Of a DNA stretch of 64,000 nt, positions 5,314 to 44,501 are shown one piece after another; the first letter of the stretch is position 1; each line of letters begins with the position of its first letter. The stretch comes from Agreia sp. Leaf210 (lineage in GTDB: Bacteria; Actinomycetota; Actinomycetes; Actinomycetales; Microbacteriaceae). Location: NCBI RefSeq assembly GCF_001421485.1, contig NZ_LMKK01000001.1:749717-813716 (forward strand), given 5' to 3'. Made by a program: the position numbers and the translations under genes. The notes beneath the pieces are model-generated. The model was not told the DNA's origin, made no database searches, and worked only from the letters and a program-made list of their open reading frames with translations.

Positions 5314-5360
5314 CGTTCCCTGAGCTTGTCGAAGGGCCCCTTCGACAAGCTCAGGGAACG
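5314..5360. repeat. Perfect 23-bp inverted repeat, CCCTGAGCTTGTCGAAGGG family
   Basis: Arms 5314-5336 and 5338-5360 are perfectly complementary around a single C. The core CCCTGAGCTTGTCGAAGGG recurs as a pair at 43444-43505 and as half copies at 40764-40783 and 54001-54018. It lies between xylA and xylB and could fold into a strong hairpin that attenuates xylB, but its dispersed copies mark it as a repeat family. It spuriously extends the xylB frame upstream, coding PFDKLRER. Confidence 0.85.
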
Positions 5361-5391
5361 ACCCGTTTTCATCCTTAAGGAATCAGCCATC

Positions 5392-6795
5392 ATGCCCCTC
5401 GTCGCCGGCGTCGACTCGTCCACCCAGAGCTGCAAGGTCGTCATCCGTGACGCCGAGACCGGTGCGCTCAAGAGAATGGGCCGCGCGCCGCATCCGGAGG
5501 GCACCGAGGTCGACCCGGCAGCCTGGTGGCAGGCCCTGCGCCAGGCGCTCACCGCGGCCGGAGGCCTCGACGACGTGGCGGCGCTGGCCGTGGGCGGCCA
5601 GCAGCACGGCATGGTCGCTCTGGATGCCGACGGCCGGGTCATCCGCGACGCCCTGCTCTGGAACGACACGCGCTCGGCGCCCGCCGCCACCGCACTGATC
5701 GCGGAGTTCGGAGCGGCAGAGCTGGCGCGACGCACGGGGAGCGTTCCCGTGGCATCGTTCACCATCACCAAGCTCCGCTGGCTGCGCGATGCCGAGCCGC
5801 AGAACGCCGAGCGCGTCGCCGCTGTGGCCCTCCCCCACGACTGGCTGACCTGGCGCCTTCGCGGCTTCGGCCCCGCCGGCGACGACACGAGCCCGCTCGG
5901 CCCGGTGCTCTCCGAGCTCACCACCGACCGCTCCGATGCCAGCGGAACGGGCTACTTCGACTCGGTCTCAGGCGAATACGACCGGGAACTCCTCGTGGCA
6001 GCCCTGGGCCACGACTGCATCCTCCCCCGCGTCCTCGGCCCCGCTGAGTCGCCCGGAACGACTCCGTCGGGCGTCGTTCTCGGCGCGGGCGCCGGCGACA
6101 ACGCGGGAGCCGCACTCGGACTCGGCGCACGCGCCGGCGACGTGGTCGTCTCGATCGGCACGAGCGGCACGGTCTTCGCCGTGACCGAGACCCCCATCAA
6201 CGACACCACGGGCACCGTCGCCGGCTTCGCCGACGCGAGCGGCCTGTCGCTGCCGCTGGTCGCCACCCTCAATGCCGCGCGCATCCTGGATGCGACGGCG
6301 CGGCTTCTCGGCGTCACCCACGACGAACTCGGCACCCTCGCCCTCGCCGCGGAGCCCGGCTCTCAAGGACTCGTGCTGCAGCCGTACTTCGAGGGCGAAC
6401 GCACTCCCAATCTGCCCGACGCCACCGCCACTCTCTTCGGCATGACGCTCGCGTCGACCACGCGCGAAGGACTCGCACGCGCCGCGATCGAGGGTCTACT
6501 CTGCGGTCTGGCCGACGGCGTCGCGGCGGTCACCGCTCTCGGCGTGCAGGCGGAGAGACTGCTCATCATCGGCGGAGCCGCCCTGAACCCGGCCGTGCAG
6601 GCGATCGTCGCCCAGGTCTTCGAGCTGCCCGTGAGCATCCCGACGCCCGGCGAATACGTGGCCGACGGCGCCGCGACCCAGGCCGCCTGGGCCCTCACGG
6701 GCACGCGTCCATCGTGGAAGGTCGCCACGGTCGCGACGCCGGCTCCCGACTACCGCCCGATCATCCGGGAGCAGTACGCGGCTCACGCGGTCTGA
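5392..6795 (+). CDS. xylB: Xylulokinase
   Basis: Phosphorylates D-xylulose with ATP to xylulose 5-phosphate, which enters the pentose phosphate pathway. It is 467 aa, typical of FGGY carbohydrate kinases. Start ATG 5392 is chosen because [18 protein letters not shown] is the standard phosphate-1 N-terminus and TAAGGAATC precedes it; the longer frame only reads through the upstream repeat. [13 protein letters not shown] (about residue 65), LLWNDTRS, a glycine-rich [12 protein letters not shown] (about 262) and [14 protein letters not shown] (about 388) are the expected FGGY landmarks. It follows xylA on the same strand and ends before a strong hairpin shared with the convergent araA. Confidence 0.95.
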
Positions 6796-26858: not shown

Positions 26859-26979
26859 TTTCGGCCCCGTTCTGTTCACCGAGTGCAGGTTTTTCACCGG
26901 CTCTGCGCGACGCTAGTTCGCCGACGCGCGGTTTGCAAGCCTGCGCCCCGCACATGCGGGGAGCTCTCACCTACCGGGC

Positions 26980-27036
26980 TCAGGAGGAACCGGCCCGTCG
27001 AGCGCGAACAGCGCCGACGCGGCCGGTTTCTCCTGA
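26980..27036. repeat. 16-nt inverted repeat in a divergent promoter region
   Basis: TCAGGAGGAACCGGCC (26980-26995) and GGCCGGTTTCTCCTGA (27021-27036) pair with one mismatch around a 25-nt loop, immediately upstream of the TACGCT -10 box of the GNAT gene. Because it is at 5' ends, it cannot be a gene terminator. A smaller dyad CCCCGCA-CA-TGCGGGG lies at 26946-26961. Confidence 0.6.
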
Positions 27037-27062
27037 ATACGGGCGCCGCGTACGCTCGATCT

Positions 27063-28148
27063 ATGCTCGAACCGCTCGACTCCCCCGCTGACACCGCATC
27101 CGACCCGGCCGCCGCACCGGCATCTGACCCGGCCGCCGCCGCTTTCACCGTTCGCCTGGCGCGACCCGACGAGTACGACGCCGTGGGCGAGCTCACCGAG
27201 CTCGGCTTCGCCACCGGTCCCTACGCTCACCTGCCACGCAGCCCCGAGCGGGCGACGCTCGAGCGCGATGCGGGTGCCCGCGCCGCCGATGGAGGCTTGC
27301 TCGTGGCCGTCGACGAGGGCACAGAGAAACTCCTCGGCACCGCGACGGTCACCCGCGCCGAGAACCCCATCTCGCGCCAGGCTCGCGACGGCGAGGCAGA
27401 GCTGCGCCTCGTGGCCGTCGACCCGCCCGCCCGCGGTCGCGGCGTCGCGCAGGCGCTCGTGCAGGCATCCATCGAGCTCGCCGCGAGCTGGGGCGCGCCC
27501 GCCCTCGTGCTCGACACGGGACCGCTCAACCACACGGCGCAGCGCAACTACCTCCGCGCCGGCTTCGAGCGGGTCGTCGCGCGCGAACTCGGCACCGAGA
27601 CCGGAATCGGCACTCCCCAGGTCTACCGCTACCCGCTCGAGAACGTCGCACCCGTGCGCATCCGGCTCGTGCGATCCCACGAGCTCGAGGCTGTCGCCCG
27701 CCTCACGGTCGACGCCTACACGAACGACTACGACCTCTCCGAGAGCTACGTGCGGTCCCTGGCCGATGTGCATGGCCGCGCCAGGTCCGACGAGGTGTGG
27801 GTCGCTGAGGACACGGCGACCGGCGCCATCCTCGGCACCGTCTGGACGCCCCGGCCCGGCGCGCGCATCTCGCCGGTCGCACAGGGCGACGAGCTCGACT
27901 TCCGGCTGCTGGCCGTGGCCCCGGATGCCCGGGGGCGCGGAATCGGCGAAGCGCTCGTGTCGCACGTGGTCGGCCTCGGCCGCATCCGGGGTGTGAAGCG
28001 CGTGGTGATGAACACCGGCAGCATGATGCTCCCCGCGCAGAGGCTGTACACGCGGCTCGGCTTCGCGCGCCTGCCTGAGCGCGAGGAGCGCATCGAGGTG
28101 GAGCCGGGCAGATTCGTCGACATCTACGCCTTCGGGCTCGACCTGTAG
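27063..28148 (+). CDS. Tandem-domain GNAT acetyltransferase
   Basis: A 361-aa protein with two GNAT domains (about residues 29-195 and 200-361). Acetyl-CoA-binding motif A is visible twice: RLVAVDPPARGRGVAQALVQ and RLLAVAPDARGRGIGEALVSHV. A low-complexity Asp/Ala/Pro-rich N-terminus (SPADTASDPAAAPASDPAAAA) precedes the first domain. ATG 27063 is fixed by TACGCT 6 nt upstream (leaderless). It resembles the MshD-type double GNAT layout only in arrangement; I cannot assign a substrate. Monocistronic, convergent with the amino-acid ABC operon. Confidence 0.85.
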   Translation: MLEPLDSPADTASDPAAAPASDPAAAAFTVRLARPDEYDAVGELTELGFATGPYAHLPRSPERATLERDAGARAADGGLLVAVDEGTEKLLGTATVTRAENPISRQARDGEAELRLVAVDPPARGRGVAQALVQASIELAASWGAPALVLDTGPLNHTAQRNYLRAGFERVVARELGTETGIGTPQVYRYPLENVAPVRIRLVRSHELEAVARLTVDAYTNDYDLSESYVRSLADVHGRARSDEVWVAEDTATGAILGTVWTPRPGARISPVAQGDELDFRLLAVAPDARGRGIGEALVSHVVGLGRIRGVKRVVMNTGSMMLPAQRLYTRLGFARLPEREERIEVEPGRFVDIYAFGLDL

Positions 28149-28240: not shown

Positions 28241-29269
28241 CTAGTCGGTCTTCGGCAGCCCGGGCGGGTTGATCTGGCTCGTGGGAATCGATTCGCTGTC
28301 GAGCCCCCAGCGGTCGAGCACCTCCTGGTACTGGCCACCCTCGATCGTGGCGTTGATGACGATTCCCACGGCGTCGATGAGGCCGTTGCCCTTCTTCGTC
28401 GCCGCAGCGATGTCGGCCGTCTGCGGCCATCCGCCACTCACGGTGCCCACCTGTTTGGTGTCGCCTGTCGAGGCCGCGGCGTAGGCGCCGCTCGCGTTCG
28501 GGTAGAAGTACGCGTCGGCTCGCCCTGACTGGATGGCGAGGTTCGCGGCGGCGTTGTCGTCGTAGTAGACGAGCTCGGCCGGCTTCTTGCCCGCCGCGGT
28601 GAGCTCCTCATTCCAGGAGAGCAGGATCTTCTCCTGGTTGGTCCCCGATCCCACGATGATCGTCAGCCCCGAGATGTCGTCGGCGCTCTTGATCGAGGCG
28701 ATGTCGCTGTCGGCCTTCACATAGAAGCCGAGCAGATCGACGCGGTAGCTGGCGAAGTCGTAGAGCTCTTTGCGCTCTTCGGTGACGGTGACGTTGTTGA
28801 GGATGATGTCGTACTTGCCCGACTGGATTCCGAGCGGCCAGTCCGCCCAGTCGACCGAGACCGGGTTGTACTCGAGACCCAGGCCGTCTGCGACGAGAGC
28901 CGCGAAGTCGGCCTCGCTTCCGAGCGGCGTGCTGTTGTCGTCGGATGCCGCGAAGACCAGAGGCGGGGCGCCGCTCTTCACGGTCTGGGCGACGGTGAGC
29001 TTGCCGGCTTCGATCGGCTGGAAGCCGCTGGCTTTGAGGGATGCGACCGCGTCGGCGACGGGGTCGATACTGGGCCGGTCGGCCGCGTTCTTGGTTGTGA
29101 GGTCGAACGAGGTGGCCGCCGCGACCTGCTGCTCGGTCGAGCCGGCGGGTGTGCCGTCGGCGGAGCTCGTGCTGTTCGCGTTGGCCGCGAGGGCGATGCC
29201 GCCTCCGGCGAGGGCGACGACGACGACTGCGCCGACGATAGCCCCGATCTGTTTCTTGTTGATGGCCAT
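28241..29269 (-). CDS. Amino-acid-type ABC transporter substrate-binding protein (family 3)
   Basis: A 342-aa extracellular solute-binding protein. ATG 29269 starts MAINKKQIGAIVGAVVVVALAGGG, an N-terminal signal or anchor segment lacking a clear lipobox, so membrane anchoring by this helix is likely. The SBP_bac_3 signatures appear as VFAASDDNSTPLGSEADFAALVADGLGLEY (split), YDIILNNVTVTEERKELYDFASYR and LTIIVGSGTNQEKILLSW. It is the last gene of the operon LLM monooxygenase, GNAT-permease, ATPase, binding protein. Uptake of an amino-acid-like organosulfur compound is inferred from the partner genes. Confidence 0.88.
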   Translation of the reverse strand: MAINKKQIGAIVGAVVVVALAGGGIALAANANSTSSADGTPAGSTEQQVAAATSFDLTTKNAADRPSIDPVADAVASLKASGFQPIEAGKLTVAQTVKSGAPPLVFAASDDNSTPLGSEADFAALVADGLGLEYNPVSVDWADWPLGIQSGKYDIILNNVTVTEERKELYDFASYRVDLLGFYVKADSDIASIKSADDISGLTIIVGSGTNQEKILLSWNEELTAAGKKPAELVYYDDNAAANLAIQSGRADAYFYPNASGAYAAASTGDTKQVGTVSGGWPQTADIAAATKKGNGLIDAVGIVINATIEGGQYQEVLDRWGLDSESIPTSQINPPGLPKTD

Positions 29270-29339
29270 GATGGTGTTGCCTCTCTTGGATGCTGTTGTG
29301 GTGCGGTAGGAATAGTGCGGCGATGCTGGGCGCTGGCGC

Positions 29340-30173
29340 TCAGAGCACCTTGCGGAGGAAGTCCTTGGTGCGCGCATGACGCGGCCTCGACAGGACCTGG
29401 CCGGGCGTTCCCTCTTCGAGGATCTCGCCCTGTTCGAGAAAGACGACGCGGTCGGCGACCTCGCGAGCGAACCCGATCTCGTGCGTCACGATGATGAGCG
29501 TGGTGCCGCTCTTCGAGAGCTCCCGGATGACGTCGAGCACCTCTCCGACGAGCTCGGGGTCGAGCGCGCTGGTCGGCTCGTCGAACAGCAGCACCTTCGG
29601 GTTCAACGCGAGCGCTCTCGCGATCGCCACGCGTTGCTGCTGACCGCCGGAAAGCTGCCGCGGGTAGTGGTGCTCTTTGTCTGCGAGCCCCACCCTCGCG
29701 AGCAGGGCCTTCGCCTGCTCGCGGGCCTCGGCCTTGCTCGCTCGCTTCAGGGCGACGGGCGCCTCGACGACATTCTCGAGAGCGGTCAGATGCGGGAAGA
29801 GATTGAAGTTCTGGAAGACGATGCCGATCTGCGTGCGACGCTCGAGGACGTTCTTCTCGGGGAGCTCGTGCAGCCTGCCGGAGCGGAGCTCGTAGCCGAT
29901 GTACTGCCCGTCGACGGTGACCGATCCGGCGTCGACGGTCTCGAGGTGGTTGATGGTGCGCAGCAGCGTGGATTTGCCCGATCCCGACGGGCCGATCAGA
30001 GCGATGACCTCGCCGGGCTGCACCGTCAGCGATACGTCGCGCAGCACCCGCACGGCGCCGTAGCTCTTCGAGACGTCGGTGATCTCGACCAGTCCGACGG
30101 TGGCGCGAACCGGCTTCGCGGGGAGGGGAATCGCCTGCTCGTCGAACGAACGGATGAATGTCGGGGTGCTCAT
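29340..30173 (-). CDS. Amino-acid ABC transporter ATP-binding protein
   Basis: A 277-aa polar amino-acid ABC ATPase (GlnQ/TcyC/YxeO type). Walker A GPSGSGKSTLL is near residue 60, Q-loop IVFQNFNLFPHLTALENV, signature LSGGQQQRVAIARAL, Walker B LLFDEPTSALDPE and switch His in IIVTHEIGFAREVADR. A 26-residue N-terminal extension with proline and alanine precedes the ATPase core. ATG 30173 overlaps the stop of the GNAT-permease gene as ATGA. It energises the importer made of the fused permease and the binding protein. Confidence 0.92.
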   Translation of the reverse strand: MSTPTFIRSFDEQAIPLPAKPVRATVGLVEITDVSKSYGAVRVLRDVSLTVQPGEVIALIGPSGSGKSTLLRTINHLETVDAGSVTVDGQYIGYELRSGRLHELPEKNVLERRTQIGIVFQNFNLFPHLTALENVVEAPVALKRASKAEAREQAKALLARVGLADKEHHYPRQLSGGQQQRVAIARALALNPKVLLFDEPTSALDPELVGEVLDVIRELSKSGTTLIIVTHEIGFAREVADRVVFLEQGEILEEGTPGQVLSRPRHARTKDFLRKVL

Positions 30174-31798
30174 GATCCACTTCCCAGAACGATGTCGTGT
30201 CGTCGGTTCTTCTCTGCCGCGAGCGGGTCGTCTGCGGTCTCGTCGCCGAGGCGTGCCCACTGCTGTTTCACCCAGCCCGTCGCACGCTGCACGGGCGTCG
30301 GCGGAAGCTCGCGATGCGCTCCGCGGGCGTAGTGCCGCTCGACGTAGAACTGGATGATCGAGAGCACCGTGGTGATGATCGCGTACCAGACCACGGCCAC
30401 CAGCAGCATCGGGATGACCCGCTGGTTGCGGTTGTAAATCACCTGCACGGTGTAGAAGAGCTCGGGCAGCGCCACCACGAAGACCACGGAGGTGCCCTTC
30501 ACGAGGCCGATGACCTCGTTGAAGAAGTTGGGCAGGATGGCGCGGGCGGCCTGCGGCAGGATGATGCGGAAGAAGCGCACCCGCCGCGGCAGGCCGAGAG
30601 CCGCGGATGCCTCGAGCTGTCCCTGGTCGACAGACAGGATGCCGCCGCGAATGATCTCGGCGAAATACGCGGCCTGATGCAGCGTGAGTCCGATGGTTGC
30701 CGCGGCGAATGCCGTGATCAGCGTGGTGGTCGAGAACTCGACGAGCCAGAAGTCGGTCGTGAACGGGGTTCCGAGGCCCAACGTCGGGTAGAGGTAGCCC
30801 AGGTTGTACCAGACGAGGATCTGCACGAGCAGCGGCACCGAGCGGAAGAACCAGATGTAGACGTAAGCCGCCCCGCTCAGCAGCGGTGACTTCGAGAGCC
30901 TGAAATTCGCCAGCACGGCCCCCAGGACGAACCCGCCGATGACGGACACGACAGTGAGTCCCAGGGTCACGCCGAGGCTGTTCAGCACCGACTGCGAGAA
31001 GAAGTACTCGGCGAACACGTTCCACTCGTATTGCTTGTTCGTGACGAGCGACCAGGCGAACTGCAGCACCACGAACGCGACGAATGCGCTCAGCACCCAC
31101 CGCCACCAGTGTCGTGTGGGTACCACTTTCACACTGCTGCGCTGGTCGAGTAGGCCGCCCGCGGCCGTATCGAGACCATCGGATGTGGTCTCGATACGCG
31201 GTGCTCGTTCCTCGCGACCGCTACTCGACCGGCGCAGACCGAGACTGGCGTCATGCGCCGCCGTGATGCCGACCACGTCGAGGGGCGCGCCATCCAGGCT
31301 CTTGGCGAACCCGTGCACGATCACCTCCTCGGGATCGAGCGCGGTGTCGAACAGCGGCGTGTAGCCGGTCTGGAAGTAGAGGTGTTTCGCCTCGGGCTGG
31401 CGCGGACCTGTCGTGAGGTACGCCCTTGTGTATCCGCGACGCACGGCCTCCTCCTCGAGCTCTTTCACCACGCGTCGGGCGAGTCCCTGCCGCCGATGCG
31501 ACGACGAAGTCCAGATGCGCTTCAGCTCCGCCGTGTGCTCGTCGAATCTCTTATATGCTCCTCCGGCTATGGCGACGCCATCGCGTAGGAGCAGCACAAA
31601 CGCACCGCCCTCGTCGGGCGAGAACGCCGACGCCGGATAGCGGCGGATCTCGGCCGACGCCTTCTCGCCGAAGAACTCTCCATAACGCGCGTCGTACTCC
31701 TGTTCGAGCTCCCGCAGCAGCGGTTGGGCCGCGGGGTCGTCGGCCGAGACGTAGACGAACCTGTCGGTACCCCGCGGTGTCTGGTCAAGCAGCGTCAC
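30170..31798 (-). CDS. Fusion of GNAT acetyltransferase (N-term) and amino-acid ABC permease (C-term)
   Basis: A 542-aa two-domain protein. Residues 1-175 are a GNAT domain (IWTSSSHRRQGLARRVVKELEEEA, GYTRAYLTTGPRQPEAKHLYFQTGYTP). Residues about 231-510 are a HisM/GlnP-type permease with several TM helices and the EAA loop EASAALGLPRRVRFFRIILPQA. The linker (about residues 190-219) is encoded by an 87-nt dispersed inverted repeat at 31144-31230. GTG 31798 follows GGGCGGAGG and overlaps the LLM gene by 14 nt. In Bacillus yxe- and ytm-type thioether amino-acid salvage operons a separate GNAT acetylates the imported S-substituted cysteine, which makes the physical fusion to the importer suggestive. 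An internal start making a separate permease is possible. Confidence 0.85.
   Translation of the reverse strand: MTLLDQTPRGTDRFVYVSADDPAAQPLLRELEQEYDARYGEFFGEKASAEIRRYPASAFSPDEGGAFVLLLRDGVAIAGGAYKRFDEHTAELKRIWTSSSHRRQGLARRVVKELEEEAVRRGYTRAYLTTGPRQPEAKHLYFQTGYTPLFDTALDPEEVIVHGFAKSLDGAPLDVVGITAAHDASLGLRRSSSGREERAPRIETTSDGLDTAAGGLLDQRSSVKVVPTRHWWRWVLSAFVAFVVLQFAWSLVTNKQYEWNVFAEYFFSQSVLNSLGVTLGLTVVSVIGGFVLGAVLANFRLSKSPLLSGAAYVYIWFFRSVPLLVQILVWYNLGYLYPTLGLGTPFTTDFWLVEFSTTTLITAFAAATIGLTLHQAAYFAEIIRGGILSVDQGQLEASAALGLPRRVRFFRIILPQAARAILPNFFNEVIGLVKGTSVVFVVALPELFYTVQVIYNRNQRVIPMLLVAVVWYAIITTVLSIIQFYVERHYARGAHRELPPTPVQRATGWVKQQWARLGDETADDPLAAEKNRRHDIVLGSGS
31144..31230. repeat. 87-nt dispersed inverted repeat inside the GNAT-permease gene
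   Basis: Outer arms GGTCGAGTAG (31144-31153) and CTACTCGACC (31221-31230), inner arms CGTATCGAGACCA (31166-31178) and TGGTCTCGATACG (31186-31198). This GGTCGAGTAG/CGTATCGAGACC combination is familiar to me as an intergenic repeat in actinobacteria. Here it is in frame and codes for part of a protein linker. Confidence 0.8.
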
Positions 31799-32945
31799 GG
31801 GATGCCTCCGCCCTGGTCGATGCCGACTGTGACGCCTTCGATGACGCGGCTGCCGCCGCCGCGTCGCGCTTCGCGACCTCGTCGCGCACGAGCGGAATGA
31901 CGTAGCGACCGAAGTCGACGGTGTCGTTCACGAAGTCGTAGCCGCGGGCCGAGATGATGTCGACGCCCAGATCGATGTAGTCGAGCAGGGCAGCGGCCAC
32001 AGTCTCCGGCGTGCCGACGAGGGCGTTCGAGTTGCCACGCCCACCGGATGCCGCGGCCGGCCTCGTCCACAGAGCCCGGTCGAAGCGGTCGCCCTGGTTC
32101 GCGATCGACAGCAGCCTCTGCGAGCCGGCGTTCTCGGGGTTCCTCAGCTCTCCGACGAACGACGAGGGAGCTGCCTGCGCCTGCCGCGCCTCGATCTTTC
32201 CGAGGATCTCCTCGGCCTTCTTCCACGCCAGCTCCTCGGTGGCGCCGAGGATCGGGCGGAAGGCGACCTGGATGCGGGGGCGCTCTGCGCGTCCCGCAGC
32301 GTGCGCCTCCACAGTGATGCGCTCGATCTGCTCGGCGGTGTTCGCCAGCGGCTCGCCCCACAACGCGTAGATATCGGCGTCGGCAGCGCCGATCCGGTAG
32401 GCCGCCTCGCTCGATCCGCCGAACGAGATCTGCGGACGAGGCTGCTGCGCGGGCCAGATGTCGCTGACGAAGTTCTCGAAGCGGTAGTGCGCACCGTCGA
32501 AGCTGAAGGGCTCGCGGCTGGTCCACGCCTTCTTCACGATCTGGATGTACTCGCCGGTGCGGGCGTAGCGCTCGTCCTTGGTAAGGAAGTCGCCCTCCGC
32601 CGCCTGGTCTGCCGTCGAGCCGCCCGTGATCACGTGCACGTTGAGGCGCCCGTCGCTGATCTGGTCGAGGGTCGCGAAGACCTTCGCTGCGTAGGTGGGG
32701 TACGACACGTTCGGCCGGTGCGCCAGCAGAATCTTGAGGTGGTCAAGCTTCGACGCGATGAAGGCCGCCGCGGTCGCCGGGTCGGGCGAGCCCGAGTGGT
32801 AGGCGAAGAGGATCCGATCCCAGCCGTGGTCTTCGTGGGCTCGGGCGAACCGCAGCGTGTAGTCCTTGTCGAAACTCGCACCCGAGCGGGCCTGGGTCTC
32901 GCCGCCGTCGTTGAGCCCGGCGATGCCGAGAAATTCGATGGGCAT
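31785..32945 (-). CDS. LLM monooxygenase, alkanesulfonate monooxygenase (SsuD)-like
   Basis: A 386-aa LLM protein close to SsuD in layout. IEFLGIAGLNDGGETQ is the start of the barrel; AHEDHGWDRILFAYHSGSPD, ILLAHRPNVSYPTYAAKVFATLDQ, LNVHVITGGSTADQAAEGDFL, YFG-type PQISFGGSSEAAYRIGAADADIYALWGEP are SsuD-like blocks. It probably uses FMNH2 and O2 to cleave a C-S bond and release sulfite and an aldehyde, or to oxidise a thioether. ATG 32945 follows AAGGAGG. It is the first gene of the operon with the GNAT-permease, ATPase and binding protein. The C-terminus ends with a low-complexity Ala/Ser-rich tail. Confidence 0.88.
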   Translation of the reverse strand: MPIEFLGIAGLNDGGETQARSGASFDKDYTLRFARAHEDHGWDRILFAYHSGSPDPATAAAFIASKLDHLKILLAHRPNVSYPTYAAKVFATLDQISDGRLNVHVITGGSTADQAAEGDFLTKDERYARTGEYIQIVKKAWTSREPFSFDGAHYRFENFVSDIWPAQQPRPQISFGGSSEAAYRIGAADADIYALWGEPLANTAEQIERITVEAHAAGRAERPRIQVAFRPILGATEELAWKKAEEILGKIEARQAQAAPSSFVGELRNPENAGSQRLLSIANQGDRFDRALWTRPAAASGGRGNSNALVGTPETVAAALLDYIDLGVDIISARGYDFVNDTVDFGRYVIPLVRDEVAKRDAAAAAASSKASQSASTRAEASRDAA

Positions 32946-32970
32946 ATCTGCCTCCTTACGTCTTGCGTCT

Positions 32971-33109: not shown

Positions 33110-35185
33110 ATGTCGCACGCGCCCACCTCCCTCATCGACCCGCCCGAGTTCCGGATCGCCCTCATCGGCGGTGGCCCCCGCGGAGCCGGCGTTCTCGAAC
33201 GGATTGCGGCGAATCTGCCCAAGCTGTGGCGATCCGACGCACGCATCCGCATCCACGTGATCGACCCGCATCCGGCGGGCCCCGGGCGCATCTGGCGCTT
33301 CGACCAGTCGCCCCTGCTAAAGCTCAACTCGATGGCGGCCGACGTGACGATGTTCACCGACGAGTCCTCGACCATCGACGGCCCCGTGCGCCCCGGACCG
33401 TCGCTTATCGAGTGGGCTCGACTCGTGAGCGCTGGCGAGATCGCGATCCCCCGGGTCGATGCGCGCCTGCGCCAGGAGATCGAGAACCTCGCGCCCGCCA
33501 GCTTTCCGACGAGACGCCTGCAGAGCCTCTACCTCAGCTGGTTCTTCGCGGATGCCGTGGGCCTCCTCCCCGAGACCGTCACGGTGGTCGTGCACCGGGC
33601 ATCCGCGGTCGAGACCGTTGACGACGGGCCGACCCAGCGCATCCTGCTCGACGACGGCGTCTCGATCGCCGCCGATGTCGTGCTGTACTCGCTCGGTCAC
33701 ACCGGCGCCGACGCCGAGCCCGAGCACGCCGACCTCATCGCCTTCGCGCGCCGCCGTGAGCTGTTCTACCTGCCACCGGCATTCACCGCGGATGCCGACA
33801 CCCGGCCGATCGTGCCCGGCCAGCGGGTCATCGTGCGGGGCATGGGCCTGGCGGCGGTCGACCTCACGGTGCTGCTGACCGAGGGCCGGGGCGGCCGCTT
33901 CGACCGCGGCGACGACGGGGTGCTGCGCTACACCGCATCCGGCCTCGAGCCGCGGTTGTACTTCGGCTCGCGCCGTGGCGTTCCCTATCACTCGAAGATC
34001 TCGTCGACGCTTGTGGGCGAGCGGCCTGCGGCACGGTACTTCACTCCGGCGATCGCACGCGCGCTCGAAGACACTCGCCCCTCGCTCGACCTCAGCGTCG
34101 ACGTATGGCCGCTGATCGCCAAGGACATGCTGTGGGGCTACTACCGCGAGCTCTTCACCGGGCACCCCGACCGGGTCGAATCCAGTTGGGACTCGTTCAC
34201 GTACGCCTTCGACCGGCTCGATCCGCGCGCCCTGCTGCTCGCCTCGCCACACACCGAGCTCCACGACAGCGCTCCGCGAGGCCACGCGATCCCCTCGCGC
34301 GACGAGCTCGCCGACGACGACGACCTCATCGCGCGCGACGCGCAGGCCTTCGTCGACCTGGTCGAGGGTAGCGTCTCGTACTCCGACGACAGACTCTTTT
34401 TGCCCGAGCTCGATCGGCCACTGGGGGGCGCGCTGGTCGCGGACCCGGAAGAGCTTCAGGAGCTCGTGCGCGACTACATCCGCACCGATCTCGCTTTGCG
34501 CACACGCCCAGAGCACAGCGCCACGCTCGGACTCTTCGTGGCTCTGCTCACCAGCCTCTTCACCCTCTCTGACCTCATCGACTCCCCCAAGTGGACCGCG
34601 CAGTCGCGTGTGCGCGACATCCACGGCTGGTGGCTCGGCTACTTCAGCTTCATCGCGAGCGGCCCTCCGGCACATCGGCTCGAGGAGCTCGTCGCGCTCT
34701 CGGAGGCGGGCATCGTCAAGTTCCTCGGAGCAGGAGTCTGGGTGCAGGCCGACGAAGAGGAGGGGATCTTCCGCGCCGGCAGCGCAACGACGCCGGTCAC
34801 CGTCACCGCGAGCGCCCTGGTGGATGCGCGGCTGCCCGCGACCGCGATCTCGCGCAGCGACAACGAGTTGCTGAGGTCGCTGGTCACGAGCGGCGCCGGA
34901 CTCGAGGAGGTCGTCACCGATGGGGCCTTCTCGGCCAGCACGGGCAGGTTGTCGGTGCGGCAGCTCGACACCAGGATTCTCGGCGCGGGCGGGGAGCACT
35001 CGTCACGCCAGTACGCGATCGGGCCGTACACGAACTCCCCGTTCGTCGGGGCGTTCTCGCGCCCGCGCACGAACGCGATCTCCTTCCGAGAGAACGACAA
35101 GGTCGCTCGCGCCATCCTGAGTCGCCTTGCCGAGCTGGCCCAGGAGCGAGGTGACACTTTGCGCGCGACAGAGGCCGCGTGGTGA
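33110..35185 (+). CDS. FAD/NAD(P)-binding protein (PF13454-like)
   Basis: A 691-aa flavoprotein. IALIGGGPRGAGVLERI (residues 16-32) is an N-terminal dinucleotide-binding motif, followed by RIHVIDPHPAGPGRIWR and LKLNSMAADVTMFTD. A second short nucleotide-binding stretch is RVIVRGMGLAAVDLTVLLTEG. These match the FAD-NAD(P)-binding family that includes L-ornithine-monooxygenase-like proteins, but no substrate is known. ATG 33110 has GACGGT 6 nt upstream, a weak leaderless -10. It is divergent from the SsuD-like LLM operon and convergent with metI, suggesting a role in organosulfur oxidation. Confidence 0.83.
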   Translation: MSHAPTSLIDPPEFRIALIGGGPRGAGVLERIAANLPKLWRSDARIRIHVIDPHPAGPGRIWRFDQSPLLKLNSMAADVTMFTDESSTIDGPVRPGPSLIEWARLVSAGEIAIPRVDARLRQEIENLAPASFPTRRLQSLYLSWFFADAVGLLPETVTVVVHRASAVETVDDGPTQRILLDDGVSIAADVVLYSLGHTGADAEPEHADLIAFARRRELFYLPPAFTADADTRPIVPGQRVIVRGMGLAAVDLTVLLTEGRGGRFDRGDDGVLRYTASGLEPRLYFGSRRGVPYHSKISSTLVGERPAARYFTPAIARALEDTRPSLDLSVDVWPLIAKDMLWGYYRELFTGHPDRVESSWDSFTYAFDRLDPRALLLASPHTELHDSAPRGHAIPSRDELADDDDLIARDAQAFVDLVEGSVSYSDDRLFLPELDRPLGGALVADPEELQELVRDYIRTDLALRTRPEHSATLGLFVALLTSLFTLSDLIDSPKWTAQSRVRDIHGWWLGYFSFIASGPPAHRLEELVALSEAGIVKFLGAGVWVQADEEEGIFRAGSATTPVTVTASALVDARLPATAISRSDNELLRSLVTSGAGLEEVVTDGAFSASTGRLSVRQLDTRILGAGGEHSSRQYAIGPYTNSPFVGAFSRPRTNAISFRENDKVARAILSRLAELAQERGDTLRATEAAW

Positions 35186-35234: not shown

Positions 35235-35894
35235 TCAGCGGCGCAGTGCCTTGCGCGCGAGGTAGTTGCCCAAGAACTGCACCAGCTGCACGATCACGAT
35301 GATCACGAGCACGGCGGCCCAGGTCACCACGGGATGGAACTGCCGGTACCCGTACTGGATCGCGAACGTGCCGAGGCCGCCACCTCCGACGTAGCCGGCC
35401 ACCGCCGACATGTCGACGAGCGCCACCACGATGAACGTGTACCCGAGAATCAGCGGGCCGAGCGCCTCGGGAATCAGCAGTGTCAGCATGATGCGGCTCC
35501 GGCTCGCTCCGACCGACCTCGCGGCCTCGATCACTCCGGGCTGCACGGTGAGCAGGTTCTGCTCGACGATGCGGCTGATGCCGAATGCGGCCGCCAGCGA
35601 CAGAGTGAAGATGATCGCCGTGTTGCCGATTCCGGTGCCCGTGACGAAACGCGCGAGGGGCTGAGCCGCGGCGAGGAAGATGATGAACGGAATCGGGCGG
35701 AACACGTTGACCAGCACGTTGAGCACGCCGAAGACAGGCCTGTTCGAGAAGAGGCTGTTCGACCGGGTCGTGTATAGACCGAGGCCGAGGAGCAGTCCGC
35801 CGAGGCCGCCGAAGATCAGGCTGAGGCCCACGATGTAGAGGGTCTCGTAGCTGGCTTGCCAGAGCTTGGGCAGCAGGGGAATCAGGTCATCCAT
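35235..35894 (-). CDS. metI: Methionine ABC transporter permease
   Basis: Inner-membrane permease (219 aa) of the MetNIQ importer. MDDLIPLLPKLWQASYETLYIV begins the family-typical N-terminus; the EAA-type loop is GVIEAARSVGASRSRIMLTLLIPEA and MSAVAGYVGGGGLGTFAIQYGYRQF is highly characteristic of MetI. ATG 35894 overlaps the end of metN by 8 nt. The operon order is metQ-metN-metI. Confidence 0.95.
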   Translation of the reverse strand: MDDLIPLLPKLWQASYETLYIVGLSLIFGGLGGLLLGLGLYTTRSNSLFSNRPVFGVLNVLVNVFRPIPFIIFLAAAQPLARFVTGTGIGNTAIIFTLSLAAAFGISRIVEQNLLTVQPGVIEAARSVGASRSRIMLTLLIPEALGPLILGYTFIVVALVDMSAVAGYVGGGGLGTFAIQYGYRQFHPVVTWAAVLVIIVIVQLVQFLGNYLARKALRR

Positions 35895-36924
35895 GGCTCG
35901 GTGCCTCCGTGGCGTCGACCTTGGTCGCGATCGTGGCGAGTGCGCGATCGACAGCATCGGCGTCGCCCGTCAGCGCGAGGGTGAGATGGCCGAAGACACG
36001 GCCCCGGATGTCGTTGATGCCGCCGTAGATCAGATCGAATGCGACGCCGGCCCGGGCGAGGTCGGAGAACACGGCGCCCTGCGACGTATTGCCGTCGCGG
36101 AACGACAGTGTCACGATGCGACCCGGATGCCGCTGCCGGAGCGCCGTGAGTTCGGTGGCGGACGGCACGCCGCGCACCACCGTCGACACGAACCGCTGCG
36201 ACGACGCCTCCGTGGGCTTCGAGAAGACGTCGAACACGTCGCCCTGTTCCACGATGCGCCCGCCATCCATGACCGCGACCTTGGTGGCCAACGTCTGGAT
36301 GACATCCATCTCGTGGGTGATGACCACGATCGTGACGCCGAACTCGGTGTTCACCCGCTTCAGCAGCTCGAGCACCTCGTGCGTGGTCTCGGGGTCGAGC
36401 GCGCTGGTCGCCTCGTCGGCGAGCAGGATGCGGGGGCTCGTCGCGAGGGCCCGAGCGATGCCGACCCGCTGCTTCTGCCCACCCGACAGCTGCTCGGGGT
36501 AGTTGCGCGCCTTGTCGGAGAGACCGACGAAGTCGAGCAGCTCGGCCACCCGCGGGGCGATGTCGCGGCGGGGCGTCTTCGCGACCTCCAGCGGGTACGC
36601 GACATTGCCCGCGACGGTCTTAGAGGTGAAGAGGTTGAACTGCTGGAAGATCATGCCGATGCCGAGGCGCAGGCGGCGCAGCTCGCGCTCTTTCATACGG
36701 GTCACCTCATCGCCGTCGACCAGGATGCTGCCGCTGGTCGCGTGTTCCAGAGCGTTGATGAGCCGCACGAGGGTGCTCTTGCCCGCTCCGGAATAGCCGA
36801 TGATGCCGTAGATGTCGCCCGCCTCGATGTCGAGAGTGAGGCCGTCGACGGCGTGCACGACGTCACCGCCACGCCGGGAGGGCGGATAGGACTTGGTGAC
36901 GTCGCGCAGACTGATGAGAGGCAT
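35887..36924 (-). CDS. metN: Methionine ABC transporter ATP-binding protein with NIL domain
   Basis: A 345-aa ATPase. Walker A IIGYSGAGKSTLVRLIN is near residue 45, Q-loop MIFQQFNLFTSKTVAGNVAYPLE, signature LSGGQKQRVGIARALA, Walker B ILLADEATSALDPETTH. Residues from about 260 form the C-terminal NIL domain (IVTLSFRDGNTSQGAVFSDL, FDLIYGGINDIRGRVFGHLTLAL), which binds methionine and inhibits transport in MetN proteins. It starts 8 nt after metQ and overlaps metI. Methionine or S-substituted analogues are the probable cargo. Confidence 0.96.
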   Translation of the reverse strand: MPLISLRDVTKSYPPSRRGGDVVHAVDGLTLDIEAGDIYGIIGYSGAGKSTLVRLINALEHATSGSILVDGDEVTRMKERELRRLRLGIGMIFQQFNLFTSKTVAGNVAYPLEVAKTPRRDIAPRVAELLDFVGLSDKARNYPEQLSGGQKQRVGIARALATSPRILLADEATSALDPETTHEVLELLKRVNTEFGVTIVVITHEMDVIQTLATKVAVMDGGRIVEQGDVFDVFSKPTEASSQRFVSTVVRGVPSATELTALRQRHPGRIVTLSFRDGNTSQGAVFSDLARAGVAFDLIYGGINDIRGRVFGHLTLALTGDADAVDRALATIATKVDATEAPSHG

Positions 36925-36932
36925 CGAGCCGA

Positions 36933-37829
36933 TCAGCCCTTGGCCTTGATGTCTGCCTGCACCTTGTCGAGCGACGACTGCAGGTCGGAGACGGGAGTCT
37001 TCACGAACACGGCCGTCCCGCCCGAGTTCTCCTGAACCGCGTCGGTGACCGTCTTGGTGTCCTGGTAGATCGACACGAGTTTCTTGAAGGTCTCGTTGTC
37101 CTTGTCTTCCGCACGCGCGGCGAAGATGTTCACGTAGGGCAGAGCGTTGGCGTCGGCCGGGTCGTCCTGGGCGATCGCGTCGTCGAAGGTGAGCCCGGCA
37201 TCCGCCACGAAGTCGTTGTTGATGATGGCGGCGGCCACGTCGGGAAGCGAGGTGGCCGTGAGCGATGCCTCGAGCGTCGTGACCTTCACCGTCGACTTCT
37301 CGGTGTCGACGTCGTCGACCGTCGAGAAGATGCTGCCGCCGTCTTTCAGCTCGACCAGGCCGGCTGACTGCAGCACGAGCAGCGCACGCGACAGGTTCGA
37401 CTCGTCGTTCGGAATCGCGACGGTATCGCCCTTCTCGATGTCTTTCACCGAGTCGTACTTCGTGGAGTACAGAGCGAGCGGGTAGATGGCGGTGGCACCG
37501 ACGGGCACGAGGTCTTCACCCGAGGCTTCGTTGTACTGGCCGAGGTAGACGATGTGCTGGAACTGGTTGAGGTCGATCTCGCCCTCGGAGAGAGCGGGGT
37601 TGGGCTGGGGGTACTCGGTGAAGTCGACGATGTCGACCGAGATGCCCTCGTCTGCCGCCGCCTTCTTGTAGATCTCCCAGTAGGGGTCGCTGGCGCCGAC
37701 GACGCCGAGCTTCACGGGGTTGTCGGCAGTGCCCTTCTCGGCGTCGCCTGCGGATCCGGCGCACCCCGCGAGGGCTGCGATGAGGGGAAGAGCGGCTGCT
37801 GCGGCCAGGATCTTCTTGGAGAGGGACAT
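36933..37829 (-). CDS. metQ: Methionine-binding lipoprotein
   Basis: A 298-aa NlpA-family lipoprotein. The signal peptide ends in lipobox LAGC with Cys23. KLGVVGASDPYWEIYKKAAADEGI, VDFTEYPQPNPALSEGEIDLNQFQHIVYL and AIPNDESNLSRALLVLQSAGLV are diagnostic of MetQ/NlpA. ATG 37829 follows GAAAGGAAGC. The leader contains a tandem duplication around the ribosome binding site (37831-37851 and 37852-37868). No S-box or SAM-IV riboswitch is evident. First gene of metQNI at the edge of the sulfur island. Confidence 0.95.
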   Translation of the reverse strand: MSLSKKILAAAAALPLIAALAGCAGSAGDAEKGTADNPVKLGVVGASDPYWEIYKKAAADEGISVDIVDFTEYPQPNPALSEGEIDLNQFQHIVYLGQYNEASGEDLVPVGATAIYPLALYSTKYDSVKDIEKGDTVAIPNDESNLSRALLVLQSAGLVELKDGGSIFSTVDDVDTEKSTVKVTTLEASLTATSLPDVAAAIINNDFVADAGLTFDDAIAQDDPADANALPYVNIFAARAEDKDNETFKKLVSIYQDTKTVTDAVQENSGGTAVFVKTPVSDLQSSLDKVQADIKAKG

Positions 37830-41766: not shown

Positions 41767-44501
41767 GGCGCGCTCAGTTTTCCGCCTGCGAGCACACCCT
41801 CGGCCCAGCGCGCGAGAGCAGAGCGGTCGATCTTCGAGTTGTGCCGGATGTCGGTGGGCAGCACAGGCACCACCAGCACCGCCGCGATATCGAGCCCTGC
41901 GGCGTGGCGCACGGCGGCGCCCAGCTCGGGGTCGGCGAGGGCGGGGCGGCGGGCCGGAGGGTCGGTCTCGAGCACGACGACGAGCTGCTGGGTTCCGCGA
42001 GGTCCGATGCCCGCGAGCGCCACTCTGCCGACGCCGAGCACCGATTCGATCTTCTGCTCGGGCCCGACGGGGGTGACGACTCCGCCTGCCGTGACGATGA
42101 CGTGCGGAAGCCGACCCTCGACCCAGAGCCTGCCCTCGGCGTCGAGGTGGCCGACGTCTCCGGTGCGGTGCCATCGTTCGGCGGGAACGTCGGACTCGTC
42201 CGAGATCGAGTCGGCGTCGGCGATGCGGTTCGTTGCCCAGAGCCGGTCGTACGACTGCTTCAAGTGCGGAGCAGAGAGAACGATCTCGCCTGTGATTCCC
42301 GGCCGCTCGCTCGGCTCGGCGGTCGGCATGCCGCGCTCGTCGAGCCCTGCGATGCGCACGCGCACCGACCCGGCGGGCGCTCCCACGCACACTCCGCCGG
42401 CGTGCCCGCCGTCGGCCAGAGCGGCGGCATCCTCTGCAGCGGCGCGGATGCCCTCCAGCGTGATGTCCGTCATGAGCAGGCCCTCGGTCATGCCGTAGGG
42501 GGTGTGCGGGGTCGCGTTCGGCATCAGTCGGCCGGCGGCGGCGAGAAGGGCCTCGGGCACGGGAGCACCCGCCGAGAGGAACGTCTTCACGCCCGCGAGC
42601 GCCGCGGTGTCGGCGGCGTTCAGGGCATCCGCTGTCGCGACCACGTTCGCGAGCGCCGCGGGCGAGAGAAAGACGACCGATGCATCCACCGCCGCCGCGG
42701 CCTCGGCCGTGGCCTTCGCGGTGAGGGTGCGCGGCGAGGTGACATTCATGTCGGGGGTGACCGAGCGGGCACCGAGGGCGGGTCCGAGCAGGGCGAAGGG
42801 GGCGAATCCCGCCACGAGACCCGTTCCGACGCCGATGTCGTACTGCAACGACAGGGCGTCGCGCACCGCCTCGAGCTGGGCGTGCGTGTAGACGACGCCC
42901 TTGGCGGGCCCCGTCGATCCCGAGGTGAATAGAACGGCGGCGACCGCGGATGCCGAGGGCGGCTCGGGCAGAGATTCGTCGGCGCCCAGCCGGGCGAGCT
43001 CGGACAGGGAGTGTCGAACGCCGAGCGCCAGGGCGCTGGACCGCGGAAGCATGGTGGTGGAGATCTTCTGTCCGGGCCACGAGAAGGCGCGGGCGACCGT
43101 GAGCCCCGGGAGGGCGCCGATCACGTGGTCGGGGCGGGCCCCGCGCACGGCGCGGGTCAGGCCGGGAAGGCCGAGTCCCGCATCTGCGACGACGACGACC
43201 GCTCCGATGCGCAGGCACGCGTAGAGCACCGCGGTCAGGTCGGCGCTCGGCGGAATGAGGAGGGAGACGCGATCGCCGGGCTTCACGCCCACTCGAACGA
43301 GGCCGGCGGCGAGCTGACGCACCCGTTTGGAGAGGAGCTTCCACGAGACGTCTCGCCGCGGCTTCATGTCGACGAGGGCGACGTCGGTGCTGTCGCGCCG
43401 CTCGTCGAGCACGCTCCAGAGGGGCGTCGCCGAGGCGTCTCGCTCCCTGAGCTTGTCGAAGGGCCGCTCATCGATGGGGTCAGATCCCTTCGACGAGCTC
43501 AGGGAACGACTAGCCAGCCAGTCGAGCACGACGGGCGCGTAGTCCACGTCTTCGGCGATCATGTGCCCGGCGCCCTCGAACCTGTGGATGTCGGCCTGCG
43601 GCATGCGCTCGGCGAGATCGTCGAGATACGTGTCGGAGAAGATGGGGTCTCGGGGGCCCCACAGCATGAGCGAGGGAACGCCGAGCTCGCGCACACCGGC
43701 TGCGATGCGCTCGAGCTCGTTCCACGATCGGTGCTGCTCGTCGACGGGGATGTCGGCTACGAAGGCGCCGATGCCGCCCCGCCGGTCGGCCGAGCGATAG
43801 GGGGCGCGGTACCCGTTCTTCACGTCTGACTCGAGCGACGGATGCGCGAGCGCCAGCGTGGTCTCGAGGAACCCGGGCGTGGCCACGGTCGCCCGCCCCA
43901 GCATGCCGCGCTGCAGCGTGAGACGCAGCGGCCACGGAATAGCGCGATCCTCGGGCTGGTGGATGGCCGTGTTCAGCAGCACGACGCCGGAGAGCTCGTC
44001 GGGGTGGTCGACGGCCCAGCCCATCGAGACGACTCCGCCCCAGTCATGGCCGACGGTGACCACGGGGCCGGAGAGCTCGAGCGTCTCGGTGAGAGCGGAG
44101 AGGTCGGAGACGCGTTGCTCGAGCCCTCGCTCGATGCCGGTGCGCTCGGAGAAGCCCATCTCGAGCTGATCGACGGCGATGACCCGCCACACCTCGCCGG
44201 AGCCGGTCTCGGCGGCGATGGCTGCGGCATCCGTCGCGGCACCGACGAGCTCGCGCCAGAGGTAGGACCACGTCGGGTTGCCGTGCACGCACAGCATCGT
44301 GCCCACCGGCGTCACGCCGAGCTCGTCGAGCACCGCCGCGTTGTCGAGCAGATGCCAGGTGACCGGGTGACCGGACTCGCCGTCGACGACCTCGACCAGG
44401 CGCGAGAATCGCGCATCCATGCCCGGCAGACCTGCCGGGGGAAGCGACGCGGGAGCGGTGCGACCCGCCGACCGGGGCAGGCGGGAGGAGCCGTGACTCA
44501 C
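41763..44501 (-). CDS. oleBC: OleBC fusion: beta-lactone decarboxylase (OleB) plus beta-lactone synthetase (OleC)
   Basis: A 912-aa fusion. Residues about 28-332 are an alpha/beta hydrolase of haloalkane-dehalogenase type: oxyanion region HGNPTWSYLWRE, nucleophile Asp153 in VGHDWGGVVSMGW, catalytic His in EGAGHMIAEDV. OleB converts cis-beta-lactones to cis-olefins plus CO2. Residues about 365-912 are an acyl-CoA-synthetase-like enzyme: FTSGSTGPAKGVVYTH, PHTPYGMTEGL, HRTGDVGHLD and C-terminal NSKIDR; OleC forms the beta-lactone from the beta-hydroxy acid using ATP. GTG 44501 overlaps the oleA stop (GTGA). The linker (residues 333-353) is encoded by an inverted repeat at 43444-43505. OleBC fusions are known in actinobacteria such as Micrococcus. 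Confidence 0.92.
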   Translation of the reverse strand: MSHGSSRLPRSAGRTAPASLPPAGLPGMDARFSRLVEVVDGESGHPVTWHLLDNAAVLDELGVTPVGTMLCVHGNPTWSYLWRELVGAATDAAAIAAETGSGEVWRVIAVDQLEMGFSERTGIERGLEQRVSDLSALTETLELSGPVVTVGHDWGGVVSMGWAVDHPDELSGVVLLNTAIHQPEDRAIPWPLRLTLQRGMLGRATVATPGFLETTLALAHPSLESDVKNGYRAPYRSADRRGGIGAFVADIPVDEQHRSWNELERIAAGVRELGVPSLMLWGPRDPIFSDTYLDDLAERMPQADIHRFEGAGHMIAEDVDYAPVVLDWLASRSLSSSKGSDPIDERPFDKLRERDASATPLWSVLDERRDSTDVALVDMKPRRDVSWKLLSKRVRQLAAGLVRVGVKPGDRVSLLIPPSADLTAVLYACLRIGAVVVVADAGLGLPGLTRAVRGARPDHVIGALPGLTVARAFSWPGQKISTTMLPRSSALALGVRHSLSELARLGADESLPEPPSASAVAAVLFTSGSTGPAKGVVYTHAQLEAVRDALSLQYDIGVGTGLVAGFAPFALLGPALGARSVTPDMNVTSPRTLTAKATAEAAAAVDASVVFLSPAALANVVATADALNAADTAALAGVKTFLSAGAPVPEALLAAAGRLMPNATPHTPYGMTEGLLMTDITLEGIRAAAEDAAALADGGHAGGVCVGAPAGSVRVRIAGLDERGMPTAEPSERPGITGEIVLSAPHLKQSYDRLWATNRIADADSISDESDVPAERWHRTGDVGHLDAEGRLWVEGRLPHVIVTAGGVVTPVGPEQKIESVLGVGRVALAGIGPRGTQQLVVVLETDPPARRPALADPELGAAVRHAAGLDIAAVLVVPVLPTDIRHNSKIDRSALARWAEGVLAGGKLSAP
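43444..43505. repeat. Inverted repeat pair inside the OleB-OleC linker
   Basis: TCCCTGAGCTTGTCGAAGGG (43444-43463) and CCCTTCGACGAGCTCAGGGA (43486-43505) pair with one mismatch around a 22-nt loop. It is the same family as 5314-5360, in frame and without a stop codon, coding a Ser-rich, charged linker that includes PFDKLRER. Confidence 0.85.

Follow-up and report, generated by a model that had tools for sequence, protein, structure and literature searches.

The DNA described here, hereafter the window, is a stretch of 64,000 nucleotides (nt) from Agreia sp. Leaf210 (contig NZ_LMKK01000001.1, positions 749,717 to 813,716); the 3.54 Mb genome that contains it is denoted G000. On the minus strand of the window, one gene encodes a GNAT N-acetyltransferase joined to the permease of an ATP-binding cassette (ABC) importer, and a palindromic repeat, read in frame, fills the joint between them. 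In window coordinates, the features of this gene are as follows:

30170..31798, minus strand: fused GNAT-permease gene, 542 amino acids (aa), GTG start (open reading frame (ORF) list, Pfam; open in seven of eight genus genomes)
31244..31798, minus strand: GNAT acetyltransferase part, residues 1-185 (Pfam Acetyltransf_1, 57.2 bits; Foldseek matches to GNAT structures)
31478..31495, minus strand: acetyl-coenzyme A (acetyl-CoA) motif A, RRQGLA, residues 102-107 (pattern [QR]xxGx[GA] matched)
31136..31241, minus strand: linker, a full inverted-repeat element of about 105 nt read in frame, residues ~187-221 (repeat comparison; predicted local distance difference test (pLDDT) below 50 at 191-228)
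31137..31177, plus strand: left half of the repeat element (occurs singly at other sites in the genome and next to DUF222 genes)
31187..31238, plus strand: right half of the repeat element (likewise occurs singly at other sites and next to DUF222 genes)
30173..31132, minus strand: ABC permease part, residues 223-542 (BPD_transp_1, TIGR01726, match to 4yms)
31040..31108, minus strand: extra N-terminal helix, residues 231-253, probably transmembrane (AlphaFold helix; hydropathy 1.61)
30554..30613, minus strand: EAA coupling loop EASAALGLPRRVRFFRIILP, residues 396-415 (by-eye reading of the printed loop)

The frame comprises 542 codons from its GTG start without an internal stop. A Pfam profile search placed Acetyltransf_1 (PF00583) at residues 30-145 (57.2 bits against a cut-off of 20.7) and BPD_transp_1 (PF00528) at residues 289-490 (80.5 bits against 26.4), in agreement with a preliminary description of this DNA, which had reported a GNAT fused to an ABC permease in a single 542-aa frame. 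The fusion is real: it was recovered as one open frame in seven of the eight Agreia genomes, and a sequencing error hiding a stop codon, the artefact that the description had named, is thereby rejected. In the eighth genome (G005, 96% complete, 260 contigs) the fusion was not found, the best match being a permease at 40% identity. With no stop codon between the domains, a ribosome that finishes the GNAT continues into the permease, and the full fusion protein is almost certainly made in the cell.

The AlphaFold model of the fusion contains two folded parts (mean pLDDT 75.8; predicted template modelling score (pTM) 0.47), with linker residues 191-228 below a pLDDT of 50. When the model was searched with Foldseek, 4yms, which we take to be the importer Art(QN)2, was listed before the GNAT enzymes (template modelling score 0.79-0.85 of target); many GNAT structures were matched, the first being 8iyo (E 9e-8). 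The 4yms permease was also the only solved chain matched by sequence to the permease part (E 4e-20). This part passes the NCBIfam model TIGR01726 (57.2 bits; cut-off 42.2) and falls below the cut-offs of all substrate-specific models in that collection (cystine, glutamate/aspartate, and others). The pattern [QR]xxGx[GA] is the consensus of acetyl-CoA motif A. The EAA loop was identified by eye, using what we take to be its consensus; a scripted pattern, too strict, gave no match. The hydropathy of the helix at residues 231-253 is barely over the threshold; together with the basic residues ahead of it, the helix would place the N-terminus and the GNAT in the cytosol, with acetyl-CoA.

The linker contains the exact 12-mer GGTCTCGATACG on both strands (31166-31177 and 31187-31198), and the arms of the inverted repeat end at 31142-31153 (one mismatch) and 31221-31232; a GTAG sits approximately 10-17 nt inside the aligned borders of the element. 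The preliminary description had recognized an in-frame inverted repeat here, and that much stands; its extent of 87 nt (residues about 190-219) does not, for comparison with the other copies sets the element at about 105 nt and residues ~187-221. The repeat was also said to be dispersed, which holds for the genome: 26 BLAST matches were obtained in G000, with 15 places besides the linker at E <= 2e-4; two of these are almost complete (82-83% identity), and most others are half-elements. It does not hold for the window, where the exact 12-mer occurs in the linker only. When 16 places in G000 (E < 1e-3) were classified by a simple coding measure, the linker lay deep inside a coding call, three copies lay at the edge of an untrimmed call (L048, L053, L058), and 12 lay outside. 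The element thus resembles the GTAG/RAYT class of repeats in being a dispersed palindrome found mainly in intergenic DNA. With the bare 12-mer as the query, 8 of 30 loci fetched from the genus were deep inside coding calls (two being the linker itself), 1 was at an edge, and 21 were outside; by this motif, which is less specific than the full element, other intragenic copies are possible. Exact counts of the 12-mer ranged from 1 to 104 per Agreia genome, with none for the control.

The same joint is not always filled by the same repeat. The first element occupies it in G000, G003, G006, and G001; in G007, G002, and G004 its place is taken by an unrelated palindrome (CTGAGC.TGTCGAAG / CTTCGACAAGCTCAGG) in varying copy number. 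The second palindrome is dispersed as well: exact copies of the 18-mer number 0 to 119 across the Agreia genomes and 17 in G000, with none for the reversed control, and 1 of 30 fetched loci lay deep inside a coding call. A literature search by its letters found no paper. Copies of the second palindrome (CCTTCGACAAGCTCAGGG) are also located in the window at 5318-5356 and 43445-43462, the first pair at the start of an ORF at 5326-6795.

Across the seven Agreia fusions, the linkers measure 129, 129, 129, 123, 147, 171, and 156 nt, all multiples of three, and contain no stop codon in the coding frame; the other two frames contain 9 and 12 stops in total. Five distinct lengths require at least four changes, each with a net size divisible by three, for which the chance is (1/3)^4 = 1/81 = 0.012 if the frame were free to vary. 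In G001 the alignment of the element has gaps of 10, 1, and 1 nt, summing to 12, such that part of it is read in another frame before the original is restored. Between G000 and G006, the ratio of non-synonymous to synonymous substitution rates (dN/dS) is 0.12 for the GNAT, 0.60 for the linker, and 0.10 for the permease, a pattern indicating that both domains are kept by purifying selection and that the linker is constrained mainly to stay open.

The history of the linkers is less simple than a single insertion. In each of five locus trees, G006, with the first element, is basal, followed by G002 (and G004 where included), with the second palindrome. The trees of the locus genes and of a neighbouring flavin adenine dinucleotide (FAD) protein gene place G007 (second palindrome) outside the first-element group (G001,(G000,G003)); the GNAT tree places G001 outside G007 and (G000,G003), and the tree of an adjoining methionine-type importer pairs G007 with G001 (support 0.68). 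The first element is thus found in the basal and the most nested species and the second palindrome in between. A single insertion followed by vertical descent is not supported, as linker type does not track the tree cleanly; linkers were exchanged or re-inserted. Since the elements of G006 and G000 agree in position and length, the first element may be ancestral, with later exchange or re-insertion. The linkers of G000 and G003 (L010) are identical (0 changes over 105 sites), while the flanking GNAT and permease differ by 8.8% and 5.1%, a contrast also visible in a sliding profile; this suggests recent exchange, or constraint acting on the RNA or DNA.

Outside the genus, the two genes are commonly separate. 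Among the 20 best-matching loci (L080-L099), a GNAT was present within flanks of about 1.5 kb in 10 and absent in 10. We also examined 20 longer stretches, picked mostly for closeness of GNAT and permease; one (G006) is from Agreia and the other 19 are from different genera. Of the 19 non-Agreia stretches, 14 carry the GNAT as a gene of its own immediately ahead of the permease. In 13 of these pairs the two genes share exactly 4 nt, the permease start codon lying across the GNAT stop (ATGA or GTGA); the exception (L108) has a gap between the genes. The remaining five comprise one stretch with a distant GNAT (L116) and four fusions. The nearest relatives by permease identity (G090, 86%; G170, 82%; G368, 81%), the unfused neighbours for which the preliminary description had suggested a search, are all overlapping pairs with the 4-nt stop/start overlap. 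In an alignment with six unfused pairs, the Agreia element takes the place of the GNAT tail, of the overlap between stop and start, and of the 13-58 variable residues with which the permease begins. Subunits of complexes are over-represented among gene pairs spaced at -8 to +10 nt (PMC10666635). To judge from the short overlaps, the GNAT and the permease may have been functional partners even before they were fused.

Four further fusions, with both Pfam domains in one frame, occur in two other genera: G125 in one, and G349, G375, and G399 in another, in which G129 retains separate genes (L099/L108). Neither palindrome motif is present in their linkers; other repeats were not looked for. The fusion of GNAT and permease has therefore most likely arisen more than once in these sequences, and it recurs without either repeat. 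The preliminary description had proposed that the repeat joined two formerly separate genes, with its presence or absence as a check. An origin from two separate genes is well supported, and a repeat stands at all seven Agreia joints; causation was not borne out, with two families at that joint and neither repeat in the other four fusions, and the repeat as a general cause of fusion is rejected. In a scan of 396 genomes of the order (E <= 1e-75), two further matches reached both parts, yet a stop between the domains makes them separate genes; in this and a scan of 398 genomes three candidates were scored per genome, such that the counts are not a census. Two of the fused loci (L106 of G375 and L107 of G399) have another GNAT gene immediately ahead of the fusion, giving operons with a free and a tethered GNAT.

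The fused gene shares an operon with the remaining importer genes; these and its upstream neighbours are as follows:

29340..30173, minus strand: ABC ATPase, its ATG overlapping the stop of the fused gene (ATGA) (ABC_tran, 138.4 bits)
28241..29377, minus strand: substrate-binding protein SBP_bac_3 (Pfam, 69.6 bits)
31785..32951, minus strand: luciferase-like flavin monooxygenase, with a 14-nt overlap with the GNAT start (Pfam Bac_luciferase, 211.8 bits)
33110..35185, plus strand: divergent FAD-NAD(P)-binding protein, a frequent neighbour (PF13454)

Translation across the overlaps, 14 nt between monooxygenase and GNAT and ATGA between the fused gene and the ATPase, is likely coupled. The best NCBIfam models for the ATPase are ectoine EhuA, L-cystine TcyN, and glutamine GlnQ, all below cut-off. 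The monooxygenase is SsuD/SfnG-like; its best model, alkanesulfonate monooxygenase (200 bits), is also below cut-off. It lies directly upstream of the GNAT in five of the seven Agreia fusions. Relatives of the ATPase and binding protein accompany the permease in 19/19 non-Agreia stretches, and the FAD protein is present in 11 of them. Convergent to the binding-protein gene, at window 26883-28148, is a gene for a tandem double-GNAT protein, with relatives in five of six other Agreia stretches and in L102, L109, L110, L115, and L119. A methionine-type importer (window 35235-37829; nearest NCBIfam models MetI, MetN, and MetQ, all below cut-off; Pfam NIL and NlpA domains) adjoins the fusion locus in L118 and in all but one of the seven Agreia, a hint of sulfur amino acids. 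The appearance of L-cystine TcyN among the best, though below-cut-off, models of the ATPase is a point in favour of the scheme proposed next.

These observations lead us to propose the following scheme. In Agreia, the gene of a GNAT N-acetyltransferase and that of the only permease of an amino-acid-type ABC importer, once separate and overlapping, have become one, with a palindromic repeat filling the joint and translated as a disordered strap of approximately 35 residues. Owing to the extra N-terminal helix of the permease, the GNAT would lie on the cytosolic side, next to the opening of the channel. Because the operon has one permease gene, and by analogy with its relative 4yms, the transporter is probably a homodimer carrying two GNATs. 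When an imported amino compound leaves the channel at its cytosolic mouth, the tethered GNAT would N-acetylate it. In loci that encode the flavin monooxygenase immediately upstream, that enzyme would then act on the product, as in routes by which S-modified cysteines are first acetylated and then cleaved. Vectorial acetylation of this kind fits the anatomy: both domain signatures are intact, the N-terminus is predicted to be cytosolic, and the importer genes are in the operon. We consider the chances of the whole scheme, in which the GNAT acetylates imported cargo and the monooxygenase follows where present, to be evenly balanced, and the same can be said of its core, that the GNAT acts on the imported ligand. 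That tethering brings a measurable gain is somewhat doubtful.

Several observations weigh against this scheme. The absence of a GNAT from the 1.5-kb flanks of half of L080-L099, and its position 6.9 kb from the permease in L116, indicate that the GNAT need be neither tethered nor even adjacent. Only 6/19 non-Agreia stretches, and none of the four other fusions, have the monooxygenase next to the GNAT, and two of the seven Agreia loci (L076 of G001 and L100 of G006) have no monooxygenase gene between the FAD gene and the fusion. Nor does the monooxygenase closely resemble that of the Bacillus subtilis yxe/scm system considered below: it scores 81 bits on TIGR03860 (cut-off 279.7), the family to which we take YxeK to belong. 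Peptidase_M20, the family of the N-acetylcysteine deacetylase clustered in that system, has eight matches in the genome and none in the window, the nearest being at G000 C1:919620. Finally, the pTM of the model is 0.47, and the relative placement of GNAT and permease is not given by it.

One alternative is a neutral fusion, in which the stop codon at the 4-nt overlap was lost through an indel or the insertion of a repeat, the strap is harmless, and the GNAT works just as a free enzyme would, gaining nothing from its tether. Unfused pairs in many genera agree with this, as do the many permease relatives lacking a nearby GNAT, the linker dN/dS of 0.60, which implies little constraint on its residues, and the filling of the joint by different repeats. 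Less easily reconciled with neutrality are the retention of the fusion in 7/8 genus genomes, its presence in two other genera, and five linker lengths reached by at least four changes that all kept the frame. We regard a neutral fusion as a possibility to be taken seriously, though an improbable one. A second product is less probable again: a free permease, made from an internal GTG (nt 31130-31132) or by proteases cutting the strap, would accompany the fusion. That GTG, a potential internal start, is invariant at the first permease codon in all seven Agreia; AGGGA stands a few bases upstream in G002, G004, and G007, and the residues ahead of the GTG are not conserved in unfused relatives. Against this, G000, G003, and G006 lack an AGGGA-type site and the AGGG of G001 is too close; moreover, the GNAT has no stop of its own, such that the fusion would still be made, and an internal start alone would need no conservation of frame.

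Two further explanations appear still more improbable. The palindrome could act as RNA, a stable hairpin in the message slowing the ribosome while the GNAT folds ahead of membrane insertion of the permease. Folding of four of the seven linkers gave -66.7 kcal/mol (z -5.3 relative to shuffled sequences) in G000, with z of -4.8 in G007 and -3.7 in G002; only -1.7 was obtained in G006, the basal species in all five trees, and the fusions of other genera lack both palindromes. The identity of the G000 and G003 linkers, which would favour such a role, could equally reflect recent exchange. Alternatively, the role of the GNAT could be to regulate the transporter, its targets being the ATPase, permease, or binding protein and not the cargo; tethering would bring lysines of the complex within reach, and the first GNATs in the fold list are the protein acetyltransferase HP0935, at 16-20% identity. 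Linkage with an FAD enzyme (11/19) and sometimes with a flavin monooxygenase (6/19) points to small-molecule chemistry instead.

How the repeats move was considered separately. Mobilization by a RAYT transposase is rejected, because the domain Y1_Tnp (PF01797) was found in none of the eight genus genomes; the control was positive in 5 of 14. A different candidate is suggested by locus L218 (G000 C5:64300-66900), where left and right halves of the element flank a 454-residue DUF222 gene, the end of which reads by eye as an HNH nuclease. Of the 15 places of this repetitive extragenic palindromic (REP) element in G000, which has 10 DUF222 genes, four are no more than 700 nt from such a gene (binomial p 2e-6), as are four of eight sites in G007 (p 5e-7); in each genome two of the four sites flank one gene and so are not independent. 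The second palindrome shows 2 of 30 sites near such genes (p 0.03), and G001 runs contrary to the association, with 1 of 100 listed sites (whole count 101). In nine stretches from several Agreia genomes, chosen for nearness (L216-L224), element halves lie near a DUF222 gene of about 450 residues, on both sides in three (L216, L218, L219). A motif was present in 11 of 30 DUF222 loci, mostly the better-scoring ones, against 3 of 13 controls and 163 of 300 random pieces, a badly chosen pool that contains the linker itself; the association rests on coordinates, not on this motif count. DUF222-HNH genes are named together with mycobacterial REP13E12 repeats in one paper (PMC10589994). We hypothesize that the palindromes are mobile remnants or joined ends of a DUF222-HNH unit. 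A bolder version, in which they are open-frame cassettes that join genes, here yielding an importer that acetylates its cargo, with each cassette being the joined ends of a DUF222-HNH nuclease element that is its mobilizer, we consider unlikely.

The locus offers a natural example of a metabolic enzyme attached to an ABC importer. Because it can be compared with unfused overlapping relatives and with fused ones that arose separately, it opens substrate channelling at the mouth of a transporter to direct tests. Here, moreover, the linker of a fusion protein retained across a genus is supplied by palindromic repeats, and there is a lead on what mobilizes such repeats in actinobacteria where no RAYT transposase was found. 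If the cassette version were true, such a repeat could turn a coupled stop/start overlap into a fusion of enzyme and transporter that brings its own flexible strap.

Among known systems, the closest in gene content is the B. subtilis yxe/scm locus, which unites an acetyltransferase, a monooxygenase, and an ABC transporter; there 2-succinocysteine is first acetylated by YxeL, and a flavin monooxygenase and a deacetylase carry its breakdown further (PMC9706529, PMC12757645). The yxe/scm locus (acetyltransferase YxeL/ScmL, monooxygenase YxeK/ScmK, importer YxeMNO, deacetylase YxeP/ScmP) shares with Agreia the clustering of acetyltransferase, flavin monooxygenase, and ABC transporter, and in yxe/scm acetylation comes first. 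In Agreia, by contrast, the acetyltransferase is fused to the permease, and the monooxygenase is nearer alkanesulfonate monooxygenase and not always present. The Agreia set may work along the lines of yxe/scm by analogy; with another kind of monooxygenase and no M20 deacetylase in the window, it is not a member of that system. The 4yms importer shares the permease core by sequence and fold, to which Agreia adds an N-terminal helix and, ahead of it, the GNAT domain. A literature search for GNAT-permease or importer-acetyltransferase fusions found none and returned one unrelated paper, which is weak evidence of absence.

Palindromes inside genes, on the other hand, are already known. Short dispersed palindromes read in frame within flexible stretches of proteins, and the idea that palindromic elements are tolerated in flexible linkers, both appear in earlier reports (PMC3733652, PMC2229807). 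The Rickettsia palindromic element (RPE), GTAG/CGTC REPs, and in-frame miniature inverted-repeat transposable elements (MITEs), as described there, resemble the Agreia repeats in lying within genes in a flexible stretch; the Agreia element differs in standing at the joint of genes that are separate in relatives, and in that two unrelated families occupy this joint in sister species. The mycobacterial interspersed repetitive unit (MIRU) is a repeat inserted at a start codon and coupled at a spacing of -4 nt (PMC12548453). There the ORF of the repeat is coupled to the next gene, whereas in Agreia one frame runs through both genes.

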